64,000 nt of DNA, taken from contig NZ_JALHMP010000011.1 of assembly GCF_022843985.1 (NCBI RefSeq), forward strand, positions 1-64,000, written 5' to 3'. Made by a program: the position numbers and the translations under genes. The notes below the pieces were generated by a model. That model did not search any database. It was given only the letters and a program-made list of their open reading frames with translations, and was not told where the DNA came from. Below are positions 49,638-56,253 of this stretch, piece after piece. The stretch comes from Phreatobacter sp. (GTDB taxonomy: Bacteria > Pseudomonadota > Alphaproteobacteria > Rhizobiales > Phreatobacteraceae). Numbering within the stretch: position 1 is the stretch's first letter; every line of letters begins with the position of its first letter.

Positions 49638-50477
49638 ATGCTGGAGGCGATCGGACGAGACACGATGGGGGAGGCGCGGGCGCTCTTGGCGCGCGGCTTT
49701 CCCATGCGCGCGGAGCCCTTCTGGGCGGCCGGGCTCGACCGGCTGTCTGCCTTTCACGATGCCCAGGGCCTCGGTCCCATCGGCCAGATCATGCGGATCA
49801 AGGGTGAAGCCGTCGGCGTGATCCTCACCATGCGCAGCCGCCGCGAACAGGCCGATGGCGCACCGCCGCAGACTGTCGTCAATCTGTCCAGCTGGTATGT
49901 CGAAGAGCGTTTTCGTCTGATGGCGCCGCGCATGCTGCAGAAGGTCCTTGCCGAGACGGTCGATAGCTTCACCGACCTGACCCCGAGCCCTGCCGTCACT
50001 GACATGATCGGCCGCTTTGGCTTCGTGCGCTGCCATGACGGCGGCGTCATCTTCGCCCTGCCGGTCCAGGCGCTCCAGTCGGGGCCTGGACAGATCGGTC
50101 CGGTCGAAACCATCGCGCTCGACGCGGCTCTCGGCCGTATCGTCGAGGATCACCTGGGCCTCGGTTGTCTCGCCTGCGCCCTGGTCGATCCGGAGGGCAG
50201 TCGCCCGCTGGTCTTCAGCCTCGGCCGGCGCAAGGGCCTGCCGGCGGCCCGGCTCGTCTATGCCGACGACGTTGCGTCAGTTCGCCGCAACATCGGGGCC
50301 ATCGCGCGTTTTCTGCTGTCGCGAGGCGTGATCTGTCTGGAAATGCCCGCCAATCGCCAGGATACACCCAAAGGCGCGTGGTTCTCGACCCGGTCCCGAC
50401 CAAGCTTCGTCCGGGGCGTCAGCCCGGTGGCCGCGATCGACCATGCCTATTCGGAATTTGTTTTCCTTCGCATCTGA
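49638..50477 (+). CDS. GNAT-like acyltransferase (candidate N-acyl transferase using acyl-ACP)
   Basis: 279 residues. Not a textbook GNAT but the fold's pattern is visible: the central strand VVNLSSWYVEERFRLMAPRML (about 80-100, trimmed to VVNLSSWYV), then the helix RLMAPRMLQKVLAE, a second strand DLTPSPAVTDMIGRFGFVR (about 113-131) and VIFALP. Its C-terminal half, from VDPEGSRPLVFSLG (about 178-191), has RLVYADD and SRGVICLEM and may be a second GNAT-like half. It is the first gene before an ACP gene (31 nt), which suggests an acyl-ACP-dependent N-acyltransferase, in the manner of N-acyl amino acid synthases. Identity is inferred mostly from context. Confidence 0.7.
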   Translation: MLEAIGRDTMGEARALLARGFPMRAEPFWAAGLDRLSAFHDAQGLGPIGQIMRIKGEAVGVILTMRSRREQADGAPPQTVVNLSSWYVEERFRLMAPRMLQKVLAETVDSFTDLTPSPAVTDMIGRFGFVRCHDGGVIFALPVQALQSGPGQIGPVETIALDAALGRIVEDHLGLGCLACALVDPEGSRPLVFSLGRRKGLPAARLVYADDVASVRRNIGAIARFLLSRGVICLEMPANRQDTPKGAWFSTRSRPSFVRGVSPVAAIDHAYSEFVFLRI

Positions 50478-50508
50478 CAATGCCACCGGACCTGAGCGGG
50501 AGAGAACC

Positions 50509-50766
50509 GTGAGCACCGAGATGATCGATATTGCCGAGGAGACCAGCGCCTTCCTCAAGGGCCGGTTCCCGGCACTCGCCAACCAGCCGCTTGCGGCCGA
50601 GACGCAGCTCCTCGCCAGCGGCGCCATCGATTCCCTCGGCATTCTTGAACTGGTCACCTTCCTCGACGAGCGCTTCGGCATCCAGCTGATGGACGACGAC
50701 TTCGACCCGGCCAATTTCGAGACCTTCGGCCAGCTGGTCGCCTTCGCGGAGCGCCAGCGCGCGTGA
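50509..50766 (+). CDS. Acyl carrier protein
   Basis: 85 residues from a GTG with GGGAGAG 7 nt upstream. The phosphopantetheine site is Ser42 in SGAIDSLGILELV, preceded by ETQLLAS and followed by FLDERFGIQL, all typical of carrier proteins of the peptide/exosortase-associated kind rather than fatty-acid AcpP (which has DSLDTVEL). It is acidic, with four predicted helices. Its stop overlaps the GTG start of the ligase gene (GTGA), so carrier and ligase are coupled. Confidence 0.92.
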   Translation: MSTEMIDIAEETSAFLKGRFPALANQPLAAETQLLASGAIDSLGILELVTFLDERFGIQLMDDDFDPANFETFGQLVAFAERQRA

Positions 50767-52292
50767 CGGCTCCGCCCTATCTCCTCCACCACCTTCTCGA
50801 ACAGGCCGCCGCGTCCGGGGCGGAGCGCATCGCCGTGGTTGATGGCGAGCGGCAGGCGACCTATGCCGACCTTCTCGCCGCCGCCCGCTGCTGCGCGCAG
50901 CTCTGTCGCGACCAGGGCCTGGCCCGTGGTGATCGGGTCGCGATCTTTCTGCCGAAGAGCCTCGAGGAATGCTGGGCGATCTTCGGAATCGCCATGGCCG
51001 GCGGCGTCTTCGTCCCCGTCAATGCCCTGCTGAAGCCGGCCCAGGTCCGCCACATCGTTGCCGATTGCGGCGCTCGGATCGTGCTGACCCTCAGGGATCA
51101 GGTCGCCGCCCTCGACGAGGCTTTTGCGGGCCTCGATGACATCCGGATCATCGCCGTCGACGGCCTGCCGGCCGACGAGCCGGCCGCCTTGCCGCCGGCC
51201 GCTGGCATCGGCGAGGATCTCGCCGCCATCCTCTACACCTCGGGCTCGACCGGGCGGCCCAAGGGCGTGATGCTGAGCCACCGCAACCTGCTGGCGGGCA
51301 CGCGCATCGTGCGCACCTATCTTGGAATCACCGAAGACGAGCGCATCCTCTCGGTGCTGCCCTTCAGCTTTGATTACGGCCTCAACCAGTTGCTGACGGC
51401 GGTGGAGCAGCGCGCCCGCATCGTGCTGCTCACCTTCCAGTTCGGCGCCGACATCGTGAAGGCGATCGCCACGCACGGCATCACCGGGCTCGCCGGCGTT
51501 CCCACGATCTGGGCCATCCTCACCCGGGCGACGCCGATCCTGGCGAAGACGCCGCTCCCGACCCTGCGCTACATCACCAATTCCGGCGGGGCCGTGCCCT
51601 CCGAGACCGTGGCGCGGCTGCGCGAGAAACTGCCCGGCACCCGGATCTTCCTGATGTATGGCCTCACCGAGGCCTTCCGCTCCACCTTCCTGCCGCCCGA
51701 GGAGGTGGAGCACCGCCCGACCTCCATCGGCAAGGCCATCCCCGAATGCGAGATGCTGGTGGTGACCGCCGACGGCCGCCGGGCCGCGCCCGGGGAGCCG
51801 GGGATCCTCGTCCACCGTGGCCCCACCGTGTCGCTCGGCTACTGGAACCGGCCGGATGCGACGGCCGAGGTCCTCAGGCCCCATCCGTTCCGGCCGGCCG
51901 TCGAGGGCGGCGAGACCGTCTGCTGGTCCGGTGACCTGGTGACGGAGGATGCGGACGGTTTCCTCTATTTCGTCGCCCGCAACGACGCCATGATCAAATC
52001 CTCCGGCCATCGCATCAGCCCGACCGAGGTCGAGGAATGCCTGATGGCCATGGGCCATTTCCAGCAGGTTGCGGTGATCGGCCTGCCCGACCCCTTCGCC
52101 GGGCAGAAGGTCCATGCCGTGGCGGTGGCCCTCGGCCCGGTCGACGGCGCCGCGGTGCTGCAGGCCGCCGCGGCCGAACTGCCGCCCTACATGGTGCCGC
52201 GCGAGCTGGAGCTGGTCGCGCGCCTGCCCGTCACCCCCAATGGCAAGGTCGACTATGTCGGCCTGGTCCGCGAGCGCAGCCATGGCGACTGA
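50763..52292 (+). CDS. AMP-forming acyl-CoA/acyl-ACP ligase, exosortase-A-associated type
   Basis: 509 residues from a GTG. ANL-superfamily motifs in order: A3 YTSGSTGRPKG (158-168), A5 YGLTEAFR (299-306), A7 WSGDLVTEDADGFLYFVARND-type block (about 393-413, trimmed) and catalytic Lys495 in NGKVDY. The gap after YGLTE reads AFRSTFLPPEE, characteristic of the ligase family annotated as exosortase A system-associated (TIGR03098). It would activate a carboxylic acid and load it on CoA or the adjacent ACP. It overlaps the decarboxylase gene by 11 nt. Confidence 0.93.
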   Translation: MTAPPYLLHHLLEQAAASGAERIAVVDGERQATYADLLAAARCCAQLCRDQGLARGDRVAIFLPKSLEECWAIFGIAMAGGVFVPVNALLKPAQVRHIVADCGARIVLTLRDQVAALDEAFAGLDDIRIIAVDGLPADEPAALPPAAGIGEDLAAILYTSGSTGRPKGVMLSHRNLLAGTRIVRTYLGITEDERILSVLPFSFDYGLNQLLTAVEQRARIVLLTFQFGADIVKAIATHGITGLAGVPTIWAILTRATPILAKTPLPTLRYITNSGGAVPSETVARLREKLPGTRIFLMYGLTEAFRSTFLPPEEVEHRPTSIGKAIPECEMLVVTADGRRAAPGEPGILVHRGPTVSLGYWNRPDATAEVLRPHPFRPAVEGGETVCWSGDLVTEDADGFLYFVARNDAMIKSSGHRISPTEVEECLMAMGHFQQVAVIGLPDPFAGQKVHAVAVALGPVDGAAVLQAAAAELPPYMVPRELELVARLPVTPNGKVDYVGLVRERSHGD

Positions 52293-53568
52293 CGCGACCC
52301 TCGCCGACAGGCTCGTCGCCGACCAGTTCGGCGTCGCCGGTGCCGACCTCCTGATCGGCGGTATCCCGGCCCGTGCCCTCGCCGAGCGCTTCGGCACGCC
52401 GCTCTTCGCCTATGATGCCGGCCTCATCCGGCGCTCCTATCACGCTCTGGCGGCCGCCCTCGAAGGCTTCGCCACCATCCATTACTCGATCAAGGCCAAT
52501 CCCAATCCGGCCGTGGTGCGGGTGCTCCATGCCGCCGGCGCCGGAATCGAAATCGCCTCGCTCGGCGAGTTCCACGCGGCGATGAAAGCGGGCGTCGATC
52601 CCGCACAGATCCTCTTCGCCGGCCCGGGCAAGCGCCGCTCGGAACTCGCGGCCGTGATATCAGCCGGTATCGGCGAGATCCACCTTGAGAGCCACGAGGA
52701 AATGGCCCATGTCGCGGCCATCGGCGCGTCCCTCGGCCGCCGGGTCTGCGTTGCCGTCCGTGTCAATCCCATCGCCGAGGCCCAGGGCGGCGCCATGCGC
52801 ATGGGCGGCAAGGCCGCCCCCTTCGGCTTCGACGAGGAGGATCTCGACGCCGTCGTGGACGCTGTGGCAGGCGATCCCCATCTCGATCTCACCGGCATCC
52901 ATCTCTTCGCGGGGACGCAGATCCTCGATGCCGCCGTGCTGATCGGCCAGTGGCGCCACGGCCTCGCCGTCGCCGGCCGCGCCGCCGCGCGTCTCGGCCG
53001 CCCGCTGCGCACCATCGACCTCGGTGGCGGGCTCGGCATCCCCTATTTCGCCGGTGAAGGCACCCTCGACCTCGCGGCGGTCCGGGCCGGCCTGCCGGAG
53101 CTGATCGCCCTGCGCGACGCCGATCCGCTCATCCGCGACGCCCATGTGCTGGTCGAGCCCGGCCGCTATCTCGTCGGTGCGAGCGGCGTCTATCTCTCGG
53201 CCGTTCTCGCCGCCAAGATCTCGCGAGGCCAGCGCTTCCTCGTGGTTGACGGCGGCATGCACCACCATCTCGCCGCCTCCGGCAATCTCGGACAGGTCAT
53301 CAAGCGCGATTATCCGGTCGCCGCCGCCTCGCGCATGGGCGAACCGCTGGTCGGTCAGGCCAGCGTCGTCGGGCCGCTCTGCACGCCGCTCGACACCCTG
53401 GCCCGCAAGGTCGAGATGCCGACCATGGCCGAGGGCGATCTCGTCGCCGTGCTGCAGTCGGGCGCCTATGGGCCGACCGCCAGTCCGGTCGGCTTCCTCA
53501 GCCATCCCGCGCCCGCCGAGGTCCTGGTGGACGCCGGCGCGGCGCAGCTGATTTCACGGGTTCAGTAG
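52282..53568 (+). CDS. PLP-dependent decarboxylase, exosortase-A-associated type (LysA/ODC fold)
   Basis: 428 residues. Fold III decarboxylase: PLP Lys71 in HYSIKANPNPAVV, DLGGGLGIPY (246-255), EPGRYLVG (292-299) and Cys367 in GPLCTPLDT. It is closest in feel to the family annotated as pyridoxal-dependent decarboxylase, exosortase A system-associated (TIGR03099), rather than diaminopimelate decarboxylase. It likely decarboxylates a free or carrier-linked amino acid. ATG 52282 lies inside the ligase gene. The 3' end overlaps the RraA-like gene on the other strand by 7 nt. Confidence 0.93.
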   Translation: MATDATLADRLVADQFGVAGADLLIGGIPARALAERFGTPLFAYDAGLIRRSYHALAAALEGFATIHYSIKANPNPAVVRVLHAAGAGIEIASLGEFHAAMKAGVDPAQILFAGPGKRRSELAAVISAGIGEIHLESHEEMAHVAAIGASLGRRVCVAVRVNPIAEAQGGAMRMGGKAAPFGFDEEDLDAVVDAVAGDPHLDLTGIHLFAGTQILDAAVLIGQWRHGLAVAGRAAARLGRPLRTIDLGGGLGIPYFAGEGTLDLAAVRAGLPELIALRDADPLIRDAHVLVEPGRYLVGASGVYLSAVLAAKISRGQRFLVVDGGMHHHLAASGNLGQVIKRDYPVAAASRMGEPLVGQASVVGPLCTPLDTLARKVEMPTMAEGDLVAVLQSGAYGPTASPVGFLSHPAPAEVLVDAGAAQLISRVQ

Positions 53569-54251
53569 ACCGAGGCCTTGCCGAGCGCGGCGCCTTTGGC
53601 GGCGAGCGTCGCATCGACCCAGCTGCGGTCGAGCGTGCCGGCGGCGATGGCCTTCATCGTCGCATCCTCGGCGGCGAGCTGGGCGCGGGCGAGCGCCGCG
53701 ACGGCGGCCACCTCCGCCCGCGGCACGGCGAGAACCCCGTCGGTATCGCCGACGACGAGATCGCCGGGCGCGACATGCTGGCCGCCGATCACCGCACCTG
53801 TATTGATCTCGCCGGGGCCGTCCTTGTAGGGGCCGCGATGGGTCACACCGGCGGCGAAGATGGGCAGGCTCATCGCCGCGATGGCGTCGGAATCGCGGAT
53901 GGCGCCGTCGATGACGATGCCGGCGACACCGTTCTTCAGCGCGATCGTCGCCATGATCTCGCCGATGATGGCATTGGTCAGCACGCCGCCGGCCTCCACC
54001 ACCACCACATCGCCCGGACCGGCCATGTCGATGGCCTTGTGGACCAGGAGGTTGTCGCCGGGCCGTGTCCTGACCGTCAGCGCGAAGCCGAGCATCGGCG
54101 TGCCGTCATGCATCGGCCGCAGCGCCGGGCCAGCGGCGAAGAGCCGGCCCATATTGTCGCTGAGCAGCGCCGTCGGGATGCCGGCGAGCAGCGCCGTCAG
54201 CGCGGGATCGTTGGCATGGGGCTTGGGCAGGACCTGGAAACCGAGGGACAT
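53562..54251 (-). CDS. RraA family protein (4-hydroxy-4-methyl-2-oxoglutarate aldolase-like)
   Basis: 229 residues. The RraA/HMG-CHA aldolase-like fold is seen in TALLSDNMGRLFA (about 27-39), GFALTVRTRPGDNLLVHKAID (about 55-75, trimmed), GDVVVVEAGG (about 80-89) and GIVIDGAIRDSDAI (about 111-124; the DG.(I/V)RD motif carries the metal and substrate ligands). Such proteins are often oxaloacetate decarboxylases or aldolases. It ends GDTDGVLAVPRAE (about 168-180). It is followed by no partner gene; its upstream neighbour on the strand is an exported protein. Confidence 0.92.
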   Translation of the reverse strand: MSLGFQVLPKPHANDPALTALLAGIPTALLSDNMGRLFAAGPALRPMHDGTPMLGFALTVRTRPGDNLLVHKAIDMAGPGDVVVVEAGGVLTNAIIGEIMATIALKNGVAGIVIDGAIRDSDAIAAMSLPIFAAGVTHRGPYKDGPGEINTGAVIGGQHVAPGDLVVGDTDGVLAVPRAEVAAVAALARAQLAAEDATMKAIAAGTLDRSWVDATLAAKGAALGKASVY

Positions 54252-54264
54252 GGCGGGAGCCCGA

Positions 54265-54840
54265 TCAGCCGTTGAAGGATTCGATGGCGGCGATATCGAG
54301 CAGGTCCAGAAGGGCGCGCTTCTCGGCTTCGGTCCCGGATCCCTCGAGAATGATCAGCGTCCGCCCCAGCAGCACCTGGATATTGCCGTCGCGGGAATGC
54401 ACGGCGGTCTTGCCCTTGAAGCGGAAGACACGGCCCATGGCGCCGAGCAGCTGGGCGTTGGAGAACAGCGGCGACAGCTGGGCGATCATCGGGGAATTGG
54501 CAAGCACCTGCAGGGTCACGTGGCGCTCGCCGGTGGAATAGCGCCGCTTGGCGATGAGGCCGCCGCCGAACATGGCTGCGGCGCTGGCATCGGTCTCAGC
54601 CTCGTCGGCGGTCCAGCCGCGCGGCGGGGCGGGCAGGAAGCGCGACAGGCCGCTGGCGCTGCGCTGCGCCAGAAGCTGCGAGGCGACGTCGAGGGCCGCC
54701 TTGGCGGCGACGAGGTCATTGGCCTGATAGGCCTTGCGGGCCTCCTCGATCGCATCGCGGATATCGTCGGCGAAGGCGGGCGAGGCGACGGCGAGCGTCG
54801 CTGCAATGGCGGCGGCGCGCAGCAGGCGGGTCAGGGTCAT
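54265..54840 (-). CDS. Exported protein of unknown function
   Basis: 191 residues. A clear signal peptide (MTLTRLLRAAAIAATLAVAS, cleavage at PAFA-DD) is followed by a helical stretch (RDAIEEARKAYQANDLVAAKA, about 28-48, trimmed) that resembles a TPR-like repeat, then LPAPPRGWTADEAETDASAAA and a beta-rich C-terminal domain with VTLQVLANSPMIAQLSPL (about 108-125). I do not recognise the family. It lies 13 nt upstream of rraA and may be co-transcribed. ATG 54840 has GAGGACC upstream. Confidence 0.78.
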   Translation of the reverse strand: MTLTRLLRAAAIAATLAVASPAFADDIRDAIEEARKAYQANDLVAAKAALDVASQLLAQRSASGLSRFLPAPPRGWTADEAETDASAAAMFGGGLIAKRRYSTGERHVTLQVLANSPMIAQLSPLFSNAQLLGAMGRVFRFKGKTAVHSRDGNIQVLLGRTLIILEGSGTEAEKRALLDLLDIAAIESFNG

Positions 54841-54941
54841 GGCGGGTTGGTCCTCATTGGCGTCGTCCGGCGCGGTGCCGGAATCGTCAGTCGTCCCTGC
54901 CACCGCCTATAGCGGGTCGCCGGCCGATTGACACGCCCCCC

Positions 54942-54966
54942 AAAAAGGGCAGCGGCTCCGCCCCTT
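54942..54966 (-). terminator. Probable terminator of the PHA depolymerase gene
   Basis: On the minus strand, 18 nt after the depolymerase stop, a GC-rich imperfect stem (GGGGCGG...CCGCTGCCC) is followed by UUUUUG. The stem has an internal mismatch, so strength is uncertain. Confidence 0.5.
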
Positions 54967-54983
54967 GCTCGCGGAGGCTGTTT

Positions 54984-56198
54984 CTATTCGCTCGCGAGGA
55001 TCATGTTGCGGACGATCGGATAGACCTGACCGTCCCATTTCCGGCCGCTGAAGACGCCGTAATGGCCGACGCCCGCCTGCATGTGGTGGCGCTTGCGGAA
55101 AGGCTTCAGCTTCGAGGCGAGATCGTGGGCGGCGACGGTCTGGCCGAGCGAGCAGATGTCGTCACGCTCACCCTCGACGGTCAGGAGGGCGGTCCGGCGG
55201 ATGGCGGAGGGGTCGACGGGGCGGCCCTTGTAGGTGAGTTCACCCTTCGGCAGCAGCGCCCGCTGGAAGACCTTGTCGATGGTCTCCAGATAGAATTCCG
55301 CCGTCAGGTCGAGCACGGCGAAATACTCATCGTAGAAGGTCTTGATCGCTTCGGCCTTCTCCGTCTCGCCGCGTGTGAGGTGGCCGTGCAGGTCGAGATG
55401 GGCCTTGATGTGCCGCTCCTTGTTCATCGACAGGAAGGCGATGAGCTGGAGGACGCCCGGATAGACGCGCCGGCCGGCGCCGGCGCAGGGCAGGGGCACC
55501 GTCGAGATCAGGTTCCTCTCGAACCACTCGAAGGGATGGCTGGTGGCGAGATCGTTGACCTTGGTCGGGTTGACCCGCACGTCAACGGGGCCGGCCATCA
55601 GCGTCAAGCTGCTGGGTTGGTCCGGATCGCCGGCCTGCGCCATTACCGCGGCGGCGACGAGCGCCTGCACGCAGGGCTGGCAGACCGCGACCACATGCGA
55701 TCCCGGCCCCATCACATGCAGGAAGTCGATGATGTGCTCGACATATTCGTCGAAGCCGAAACGTCCCGCCGTCCATGGAATGTCGCGGGCGCTGTGCCAG
55801 TCGGTGATGAAGACGTCATGGTCCTGCAGCATCGTCCGCGCCGTGCTGCGCAGCAATGTCGCGAAATGGCCGGAGAGCGGCGCCACCAGCAGCACTTTCG
55901 GCTGGGTGACGTCGACATCCTTGCGGAAATTGAGCAGCGTTCCGAAGGGCGTGACGTGGACGGGGACCTCCGATACAGCCGCCTCGCGGTTGCCCACCAT
56001 GACGCTGGTGATCCCGTAATCCGGACGGGTATGGATGACTCCGGTGCGGCCGATCATCTCCCAGGACGCCATGATCTCGCGGCCGAGCCGTCCTTGCGAT
56101 GCGAAGAGAGCGGGGCCGAACAGGGCACCGGCCATGCGGGCAGCATCACGTACGGGCTCGAACATCCGCTGCTGGAATTCGAACGCGTGGTACAGCAT
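54984..56198 (-). CDS. phaZ: Intracellular polyhydroxyalkanoate depolymerase
   Basis: 404 residues, typical of PhaZ of the short-chain, intracellular type. The family start MLYHAFEFQQRMFEP, the strand VLLVAPLSGHFATLLRSTARTM (about 102-123, trimmed), DVFITDWHSARDIP (about 128-141) and the nucleophile region VVAVCQPCVQAL (about 169-180, Cys173) all match. The final HYGVFSGRKW (about 384-393) supplies the His. It releases hydroxybutyrate from storage granules. ATG 56198 is chosen; the upstream frame adds unrelated residues. Confidence 0.95.
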   Translation of the reverse strand: MLYHAFEFQQRMFEPVRDAARMAGALFGPALFASQGRLGREIMASWEMIGRTGVIHTRPDYGITSVMVGNREAAVSEVPVHVTPFGTLLNFRKDVDVTQPKVLLVAPLSGHFATLLRSTARTMLQDHDVFITDWHSARDIPWTAGRFGFDEYVEHIIDFLHVMGPGSHVVAVCQPCVQALVAAAVMAQAGDPDQPSSLTLMAGPVDVRVNPTKVNDLATSHPFEWFERNLISTVPLPCAGAGRRVYPGVLQLIAFLSMNKERHIKAHLDLHGHLTRGETEKAEAIKTFYDEYFAVLDLTAEFYLETIDKVFQRALLPKGELTYKGRPVDPSAIRRTALLTVEGERDDICSLGQTVAAHDLASKLKPFRKRHHMQAGVGHYGVFSGRKWDGQVYPIVRNMILASE

Positions 56199-56253
56199 GG
56201 GTGGTCCGGGGTGGGTCGAGATGCCACCTTGGCATCGATCCAAAAAAAGCTAG

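Follow-up and report, generated by a model that had tools for sequence, protein, structure and literature searches.

A conserved four-gene cassette of Phreatobacter with a possible role in carrier-bound amino acid chemistry

Gene content of the cassette

We analysed a stretch of 64,000 nucleotides (nt) from Phreatobacter sp. (contig NZ_JALHMP010000011.1; hereafter the window), in which four consecutive genes at 49638-53568 encode a GNAT-fold protein, a stand-alone acyl carrier protein (ACP), an adenylating ligase of the ANL family and a fold-III pyridoxal phosphate (PLP) decarboxylase. The gene positions and spacing given in an earlier note on this DNA were all reproduced: a gap of 31 nt (50478-50508) separates the GNAT and carrier protein genes, the carrier protein and ligase genes overlap by GTGA (50763-50766), and the ligase and decarboxylase genes overlap by 11 nt (52282-52292). 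The features, with protein lengths in amino acids (aa), are as follows.

49638..50477, plus strand: GNAT-fold protein, 279 aa, proposed aminoacyl-ACP-dependent aminoacyltransferase
50509..50766, plus strand: stand-alone carrier protein, 85 aa, GTG start; PP-binding 24.5 bits against a cut-off of 20.8
50632..50634, plus strand: codon of the phosphopantetheine-attachment residue Ser42 (context Asp41-Ser42-Leu43), present in 33/33 aligned rows including the window
50763..52292, plus strand: ANL-family adenylating ligase, 509 aa, VinN-like beta-amino-acid pocket; AMP-binding 276.5 bits
51372..51374, plus strand: ligase Asp204 (VinN D230, GrsA D235), proposed contact of the substrate amino group (role as in passages of PMC11253843)
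51678..51680, plus strand: ligase Arg306 (VinN R331), proposed contact of the free carboxylate (role as in passages of PMC7756342 and PMC12186527)
52282..53568, plus strand: fold-III PLP decarboxylase, 428 aa, BtrK-like by its best match, proposed to act on an ACP-bound amino acid
52492..52494, plus strand: codon of decarboxylase Lys71 (YSIKANPN), to which PLP is expected to bind; almost invariant across 35 rows, the window among them

The carrier protein, in which the earlier note had recognised a phosphopantetheine serine, scored above the PP-binding gathering score, and the decarboxylase matched Orn_Arg_deC_N (139.9 bits) together with the C-terminal sheet domain (57.8 bits); its Lys71 presumably binds PLP, as expected for this fold. 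The likeness of the ligase and the decarboxylase to families named as exosortase-A-associated, also seen before, was borne out by profile search, with scores that fall just below the curated cut-offs (586.6 bits against 592.35 for TIGR03098 and 436.7 bits against 478.45 for TIGR03099, respectively), and a model of a long-chain acyl-CoA ligase subfamily gave the ligase 293 bits (cut-off 476).

Neither Pfam nor NCBIfam has a family that matches the 279-aa protein, and searches of PDB sequences with it, singly or as a profile, led to nothing. Structure prediction gave a GNAT fold with a mean predicted local distance difference test score (pLDDT) of 94.5, in agreement with the GNAT-like fold suspected earlier, and the VIA matches include glucosamine N-acetyltransferases. 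The coenzyme A (CoA)-pyrophosphate loop of GNAT proteins usually reads Q/RxxGxG/A, whereas the window protein has R93-x-x-A96-P97 at this place; Arg is found in 116/117 distinct family members, Ala in 105/117 and Pro in 76/117. The synthases of N-acyl amino acids (Fee-type) had been named as the nearest known logic, a comparison that found no backing: not one of 42 family members gave a match (E<=0.1) to a profile of N-acyl amino acid synthases in searches of Pfam and NCBIfam, libraries that we take to contain such profiles, and their only matches were to Acetyltransf_1 (6), Acetyltransf_6 (1) and one NusA repeat.

The ligase pocket resembles that of VinN. Specifically, a 151-residue stretch covering the pocket had VinN as its best PDB match (69 bits, the next being 40), and gap-free stretches of the alignment with VinN (3wv4/3wvn) pair identical residues at D204/D230, S274/S299, M298/M323 and R306/R331, similar ones at Y205/F231 and different ones at F305/K330, the VinN numbers being those of PMC11253843 and PMC9484153 and their pairing with the printed VinN letters being our own. 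Passages of PMC11253843 give D230, F231, S299, K330 and R331, together with a loop shorter by one residue, as the VinN determinants for beta-amino acids, and M323 is taken from PMC9484153; the window ligase has the equivalents of D230, S299 and R331, a bulky residue at position 231 and the short loop in the same register. The pocket letters are identical in 33 of 36 rows including the window, in free-standing cassettes and in those linked to exopolysaccharide (EPS) genes alike, one row being cut before the last position by a contig end; the exceptions are the ligases of S. meliloti, Aureimonas and locus L080, which may use another acid. For BolO, aspartate was proposed as substrate from D230 and S299/R331, and its decarboxylase BolN was called BtrK-like (passages of PMC7756342); AfcQ, with an R331 equivalent, activates L-Asp in vitro, and AfcP decarboxylates it on the carrier (passages of PMC12186527). 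From its residues, we propose that the cassette ligase is a VinN-type loader of Asp or a similar acid by the side-chain carboxyl.

The decarboxylase is nearer to BtrK than to diaminopimelate or ornithine decarboxylases. Its best PDB match was BtrK (2j66/7ru7, one protein; E about 1e-79, 272 bits), followed by diaminopimelate decarboxylase (5.6e-52, 181 bits, about 91 below BtrK), lysine/ornithine decarboxylase (95 bits) and plain ornithine decarboxylase (57 bits), and it carries the BtrK type of motif, with GPLCTPLD in 33/35 rows and CTPLD in 35/35, as compared with GPLCTPED in BtrK and GPICETGD in the diaminopimelate decarboxylase 2p3e. We rejected the possibility that it is the LysA of the genome; a separate LysA-like protein with GPICESGD is encoded on contig C5, and another decarboxylase of the genome, with GPTCDSVD, on contig C15. 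According to passages of PMC7857480, BtrK decarboxylates glutamyl-BtrI, i.e. a carrier-tethered amino acid, and the BtrK clade is unlikely to have a part in the metabolism of polyamines, an argument against a free amine as the product. The earlier note had envisaged an acyl-ACP joined to a free amine; because BtrK is the nearest decarboxylase and the ligase pocket is of the VinN/BolO type, this chemistry is less well supported than one based on an aminoacyl-ACP rather than a fatty acyl-ACP, and we regard aminoacyl-ACP chemistry in the cassette as probable.

Conservation and genomic setting

The GNAT family is present in 45/397 genomes of the order (E<=0.001), including all 12 of the genus. We inspected 39 of these 45 genomes, that of the window and 38 retrieved ones (six were not retrieved), and found all four genes in order in 15, namely 11 of the 12 Phreatobacter genomes and four of other genera; in the twelfth Phreatobacter genome, a contig end falls inside the ligase. 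Among named genomes, which are partly the same as those of the order-wide set, 80 loci were kept from 215 relatives found, and 21 of them, in Phreatobacter, Agrobacterium, Rhizobium and Shinella, contain the complete cassette. This gene order is not due to chance, and the four genes form one conserved unit, as had been supposed from their packing.

We compared the flanks by gene clusters, with Pfam for selected neighbours. Most Phreatobacter loci have genes for a TRAP transporter, an RraA-like protein and a polyhydroxybutyrate (PHB) depolymerase, and three others have TctC or ABC transporter genes; one annotated Agrobacterium locus has genes for a chorismate-binding enzyme, TGT, a QueA-type protein, cyclophilin and a GidA-type protein, and its clusters recur at the other Agrobacterium loci; and elsewhere the neighbours are a flagellar gene of the FHIPEP type, a gene encoding PAS-GGDEF-EAL domains or LysR regulators. 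The flanking genes thus vary between loci, indicating that the cassette stands alone. In the window, genes convergent to the cassette (53562-56243), which keep their place in most Phreatobacter loci, encode an RraA-like protein, a protein of 212 aa that matches no Pfam family, and a PHB depolymerase. A recent import of the cassette was rejected, since the flanks are common to the window and 8 of the 11 fetched Phreatobacter loci (L042-L044 differ), and is also contradicted by the GNATs of the genus, which are 45-90% identical to each other.

EPS profiles (glycosyltransferases, Wzy, flippases, deacetylases and GumC), which were built from clusters in the fetched loci, had no match in the window at E<=1e-3. 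The window was earlier said to lack exosortase and polysaccharide genes, and this holds, PEP-CTERM proteins being outside what was searched for. On Shinella and Rhizobium plasmids, the cassette lies within an EPS cluster (glycosyltransferases, flippase, polysaccharide deacetylase and nucleotide sugar dehydrogenases), and the EPS loci of S. meliloti pSymB and of Aureimonas have a divergent GNAT (98 and 103 bits, respectively) ahead of a ligase and a decarboxylase labelled 'exosortase A system-associated', those of S. meliloti exceeding both TIGR cut-offs. When an EPS locus was defined by at least two EPS gene classes within 9 kb, 6/35 decarboxylase-linked GNATs lay in such loci and 29/35 did not, Aureimonas remaining uncounted in spite of its annotated glycosyltransferases. 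The survey upheld the expectation of a cassette that is found again with no exosortase or EPS genes close by, and the window itself is free of EPS genes, but the earlier note did not foresee that the cassettes of some relatives lie inside EPS loci. Of the two results that the note had named as refuting, a constant link of the cassette to exosortase/EPS genes and a 279-residue protein with no GNAT-like fold, neither was found. On the plasmid of Rhizobium sp. CC-CFT758 (L155 12866-14640), no carrier protein or ligase is listed between the GNAT and the decarboxylase; the genes are perhaps disrupted or merely unlisted in the PLSDB table.

The PF09721 exosortase profile found nothing in the 12 Phreatobacter genomes, the whole genome of the window included (0/12), and nothing in 30 cassette genomes (0/30; the 12 Phreatobacter, four others of the order and 14 of Agrobacterium, Rhizobium and Shinella, representing 14 of 16 such named loci; S. 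meliloti and Aureimonas are not among them), by which we rejected an exosortase as the partner of the cassette. The TIGR03099 cut-off was exceeded in 10/385 genomes of the class, 9 of which have an exosortase, and a carrier-protein-like gene lies near 9 of these 10 loci (the exception being L192). A GNAT profile, which in a control recovered 6/6 known positives (including the S. meliloti and Aureimonas records) and 0/4 negatives, matched none of 12 genomes with strong TIGR03099 matches, i.e. the 10 above the cut-off and the sub-threshold genomes G626 and G117. In the latter two, the ligase, decarboxylase and carrier protein are present and neither GNAT nor exosortase was found, so that another partner, or none, is possible for this trio. 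At locus L195 (5629-10939), the genes for a carrier protein, a ligase and a decarboxylase lie between polysaccharide-deacetylase-like frames, with glycosyltransferase-like frames beyond, in a genome in which no GNAT or exosortase was found.

The GNAT family and amino acid--[ACP] ligases

From 130 GNAT segments in the loci, 117 distinct ones were kept, and their neighbours were scored within 9 kb. A carrier protein gene accompanies 98/117; 35 have a decarboxylase nearby, always together with a carrier protein, 54 have a gene resembling amino acid--[ACP] ligases (52 of them also a carrier protein), 11 have a carrier protein only (including L080 and the contig-cut L037), and 17 have none of these. 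The profile by which amino acid--[ACP] ligases were recognised derives from a cluster in the loci, the Bradyrhizobium member of which reaches 485.5 bits with NF005479 (cut-off 357), and the frames of GNAT and ligase are at most 112 bases apart in 30/54 cases and 1.5-5 kb apart in 19. In the GNAT tree, a starred branch (100/99) splits the 35 decarboxylase-linked members and four others from 78, a sister clade in which 52/78 are linked to amino acid--[ACP] ligases; one Shinella GNAT at 6.6 kb from such a ligase is nested in the decarboxylase-linked clade (100/95), and the tree program gave a long-branch warning that includes L137, L046, L047 and L048. At least two EPS classes were found near 13/17 GNATs with none of the partners, 6/35 with a decarboxylase, 1/54 with an amino acid--[ACP] ligase and 0/11 with a carrier protein only, a contrast that is descriptive because the profiles derive from the same loci; by Pfam, the EPS cluster representatives are glycosyltransferase, Wzy_C, MurJ-like flippase and polysaccharide deacetylase. 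The presence of 52/78 sister-clade GNATs near amino acid--[ACP] ligases, and of many of the remaining ones in EPS loci, makes the GNAT a candidate for a transferase that depends on aminoacyl-ACP and perhaps acts on polysaccharide. At locus L080 (3725-10849), from a metagenome-assembled genome of Hyphomicrobiales, no decarboxylase was detected, and a GNAT is accompanied by two carrier protein matches and two different ligases, one of them with a VinN-like MYGLTECKRC loop.

On one Shinella plasmid, an amino acid--[ACP] ligase accompanied by a carrier protein and a dehydrogenase-like gene is followed, within about 30 kb, by a GNAT (227 bits), by EPS genes and then by the complete cassette, so that both charging systems, each with its GNAT (248 and 227 bits), are arranged around one EPS cluster. 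On the plasmid of Shinella sp. WSC3-e (L166 19174-22487), the annotated gene for a DUF1839 family protein, a possible extra part of that system, adjoins those for the amino acid--[ACP] ligase, the dehydrogenase-like protein and the carrier protein. Amino acid--[ACP] ligases were found in 12/12 Phreatobacter genomes. In that of the window, contig C1 (L163 7158-9814) encodes a carrier protein, an acyl-CoA-dehydrogenase-like protein and an amino acid--[ACP] ligase, and genes for a glycosyltransferase, Wzy, GT2, a deacetylase, Wzz and a flippase start about 7 kb past this locus (L184; region about 7-26 kb). No GNAT of the cassette family was found at the contig C1 locus, the only one found in the genome being that of the cassette.

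The amino acid--[ACP] ligase loci (NF005479) and the cassette are alike in having a carrier protein that receives an amino acid, as proposed for the cassette, and in the closeness of a GNAT from one family; they differ in that the former use class-II aminoacyl-tRNA synthetase (aaRS)-like charging, have an acyl-CoA-dehydrogenase-like protein instead of the decarboxylase and have GNATs of the sister clade. A passage of PMC9437257 calls the biological role of amino acid--[ACP] ligases unknown, and a GNAT that occurs both beside these ligases and in the cassette is a concrete, testable candidate for the missing acceptor step.

A possible pathway and its alternatives

We infer the substrate, the order of the steps, the dependence of the GNAT on a carrier protein and the acceptor as follows. 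The ligase would adenylate a dicarboxylic amino acid, to judge from its pocket residues most likely L-Asp at the side-chain carboxyl, and load it onto the phosphopantetheine of Ser42; the decarboxylase, if its homology with BtrK extends to its substrate, would strip the alpha-carboxyl on the carrier, giving a beta-alanyl-type thioester; and the GNAT would move the aminoacyl group from the carrier protein to an amine or hydroxyl acceptor, a step proposed because of its fold, the changes in its CoA loop and the occurrence of relatives next to amino acid--[ACP] ligases and to EPS genes. The acceptor, the least certain part, is perhaps a sugar of EPS or of an envelope glycan, made in cis in loci of the Shinella/Rhizobium type and in trans in Phreatobacter and Agrobacterium. 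We somewhat favour this full mechanism, a self-contained aminoacyl-carrier-protein pathway of loading, decarboxylation and transfer. The simplest reading would be a glycan-directed, aminoacyl-ACP-dependent transferase whose charging systems are interchangeable. More tentatively, the GNAT family may be a new aminoacyl-carrier-protein-dependent class that decorates EPS or another glycan with amino acids and is served by two unrelated charging systems, one VinN/BtrK-like and beta-alanyl, the other consisting of the aaRS-like amino acid--[ACP] ligases.

The loading logic of three parts is already known from VinN/VinL/VinO, BtrK and AfcQ/K/P. VinN-VinL-VinO and AfcQ-AfcK-AfcP are a ligase, a carrier protein and a decarboxylase that work in this order, the thioester being formed before decarboxylation (for AFC, passages of PMC12186527). 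These systems, for vicenistatin and AFC-BC11, share with the cassette an adenylating enzyme, a stand-alone ACP and a PLP decarboxylase, and the D/S/M/R of the VinN pocket recur in the cassette ligase, whereas the cassette has a GNAT in place of VinM/VinK or of a fatty acyl-AMP ligase, and a Phe at K330. The butirosin system uses another type of ligase, with BtrH as the transferase, unlike the ANL ligase and GNAT of the cassette. A papain-like fold is mentioned for BtrH in part of PMC2922099, and the likeness to butirosin lies in BtrK, the nearest solved decarboxylase, which acts on glutamyl-BtrI (passages of PMC7857480). Among the cassette neighbours checked, we saw no gene for a polyketide or peptide synthase. 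What is new is the combination of the loading trio with a GNAT as fourth part, without polyketide, peptide or aminoglycoside genes seen nearby, and the tie to the amino acid--[ACP] ligases; no description of the cassette was found among the open-licence papers listed, a scope that excludes the original amino acid:carrier protein ligase papers (2010 PNAS, 2013 Structure). PMC8776678 does not deal with it, and a search of Haft 2006 (PMC1569441) by terms gave no match. If correct, our proposal would assign a role to a ligase and a decarboxylase that appear in databases only under the label 'exosortase A system-associated', and chemistry on carrier-bound beta-amino acids, familiar from antibiotics, would take place beyond antibiotic clusters and be conserved across one genus.

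Several points weigh against the proposed pathway. Phe305 replaces K330 of VinN in the window ligase, and the acid may therefore differ from Asp; over its whole length, the ligase matches linear gramicidin synthetase better than VinN (327.9 versus 225.9 bits, with two adenylation domains summed); and homology with BtrK does not prove a tethered substrate. The GNAT is not a constant companion of the ligase, decarboxylase and carrier protein, being absent from the 12 genomes with strong TIGR03099 matches, two of which (G626 and G117) have no exosortase either. The GNAT could instead N-acylate an aminoacyl-ACP or use CoA. In 5/54 cases, the amino acid--[ACP] ligase is more than 5 kb from the GNAT, and Bradyrhizobium and Xanthobacteraceae account for the bulk of this link, which means that the 54 cases are not independent. 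With only 6/35 decarboxylase-linked GNATs in EPS loci, a polysaccharide acceptor is indirect for the window; in addition, the EPS, carrier protein and amino acid--[ACP] profiles come from these same loci, and the 9-kb counts carry no background rate.

Among the alternatives, the GNAT might N-acylate beta-alanyl-ACP, or a similar thioester, with acyl-CoA, yielding a small molecule of the N-acyl-beta-alanine type without any polysaccharide. The free-standing cassettes of Phreatobacter and Agrobacterium would suit such a product, and there are precedents with other enzymes, as N-acylation of beta-alanyl-ACP has been proposed for bolagladin (passages of PMC7756342) and, for AFC-BC11, myristoyl was put on (beta-Ala)3-S-AfcK in vitro (passages of PMC12186527). 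However, the four genes include no releasing enzyme, the CoA loop of the GNAT is altered and its relatives are found within EPS loci; we consider this alternative unlikely. The cassette might also be an offshoot of the exosortase-A/EPS set that keeps the role of TIGR03098/TIGR03099 and was joined by an unrelated acyltransferase. The pairs are homologous and both have a carrier-protein-like gene nearby (in 9/10 loci above the cut-off), the window scores lie just under the thresholds, and the S. meliloti and Aureimonas EPS loci combine a divergent GNAT with a ligase and a decarboxylase of that label; yet the window falls below both cut-offs in a genome without exosortase, the GNAT is present here and was not found there, and GNAT and exosortase were never found together, either in the 30 cassette genomes or in the 10 genomes above the cut-off, 9 of them with exosortase (the exosortase search did not extend to S. 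meliloti and Aureimonas), which makes such an origin improbable. Synthesis of an N-acyl amine or N-acyl amino acid of the Fee type, in which the ligase would load a fatty acid, the decarboxylase would free an amine and the GNAT would join them, formally fits the gene content, the predicted GNAT fold and the 293 bits of the ligase with the long-chain acyl-CoA ligase model, but is hardly probable in view of the missing synthase profile matches (0/42), the BtrK clade's lack of a polyamine role (passages of PMC7857480), a pocket like that of VinN-type amino-acid enzymes and a decarboxylase that scores 272 bits with BtrK against 95 and 57 with the lysine/ornithine and plain ornithine decarboxylases.

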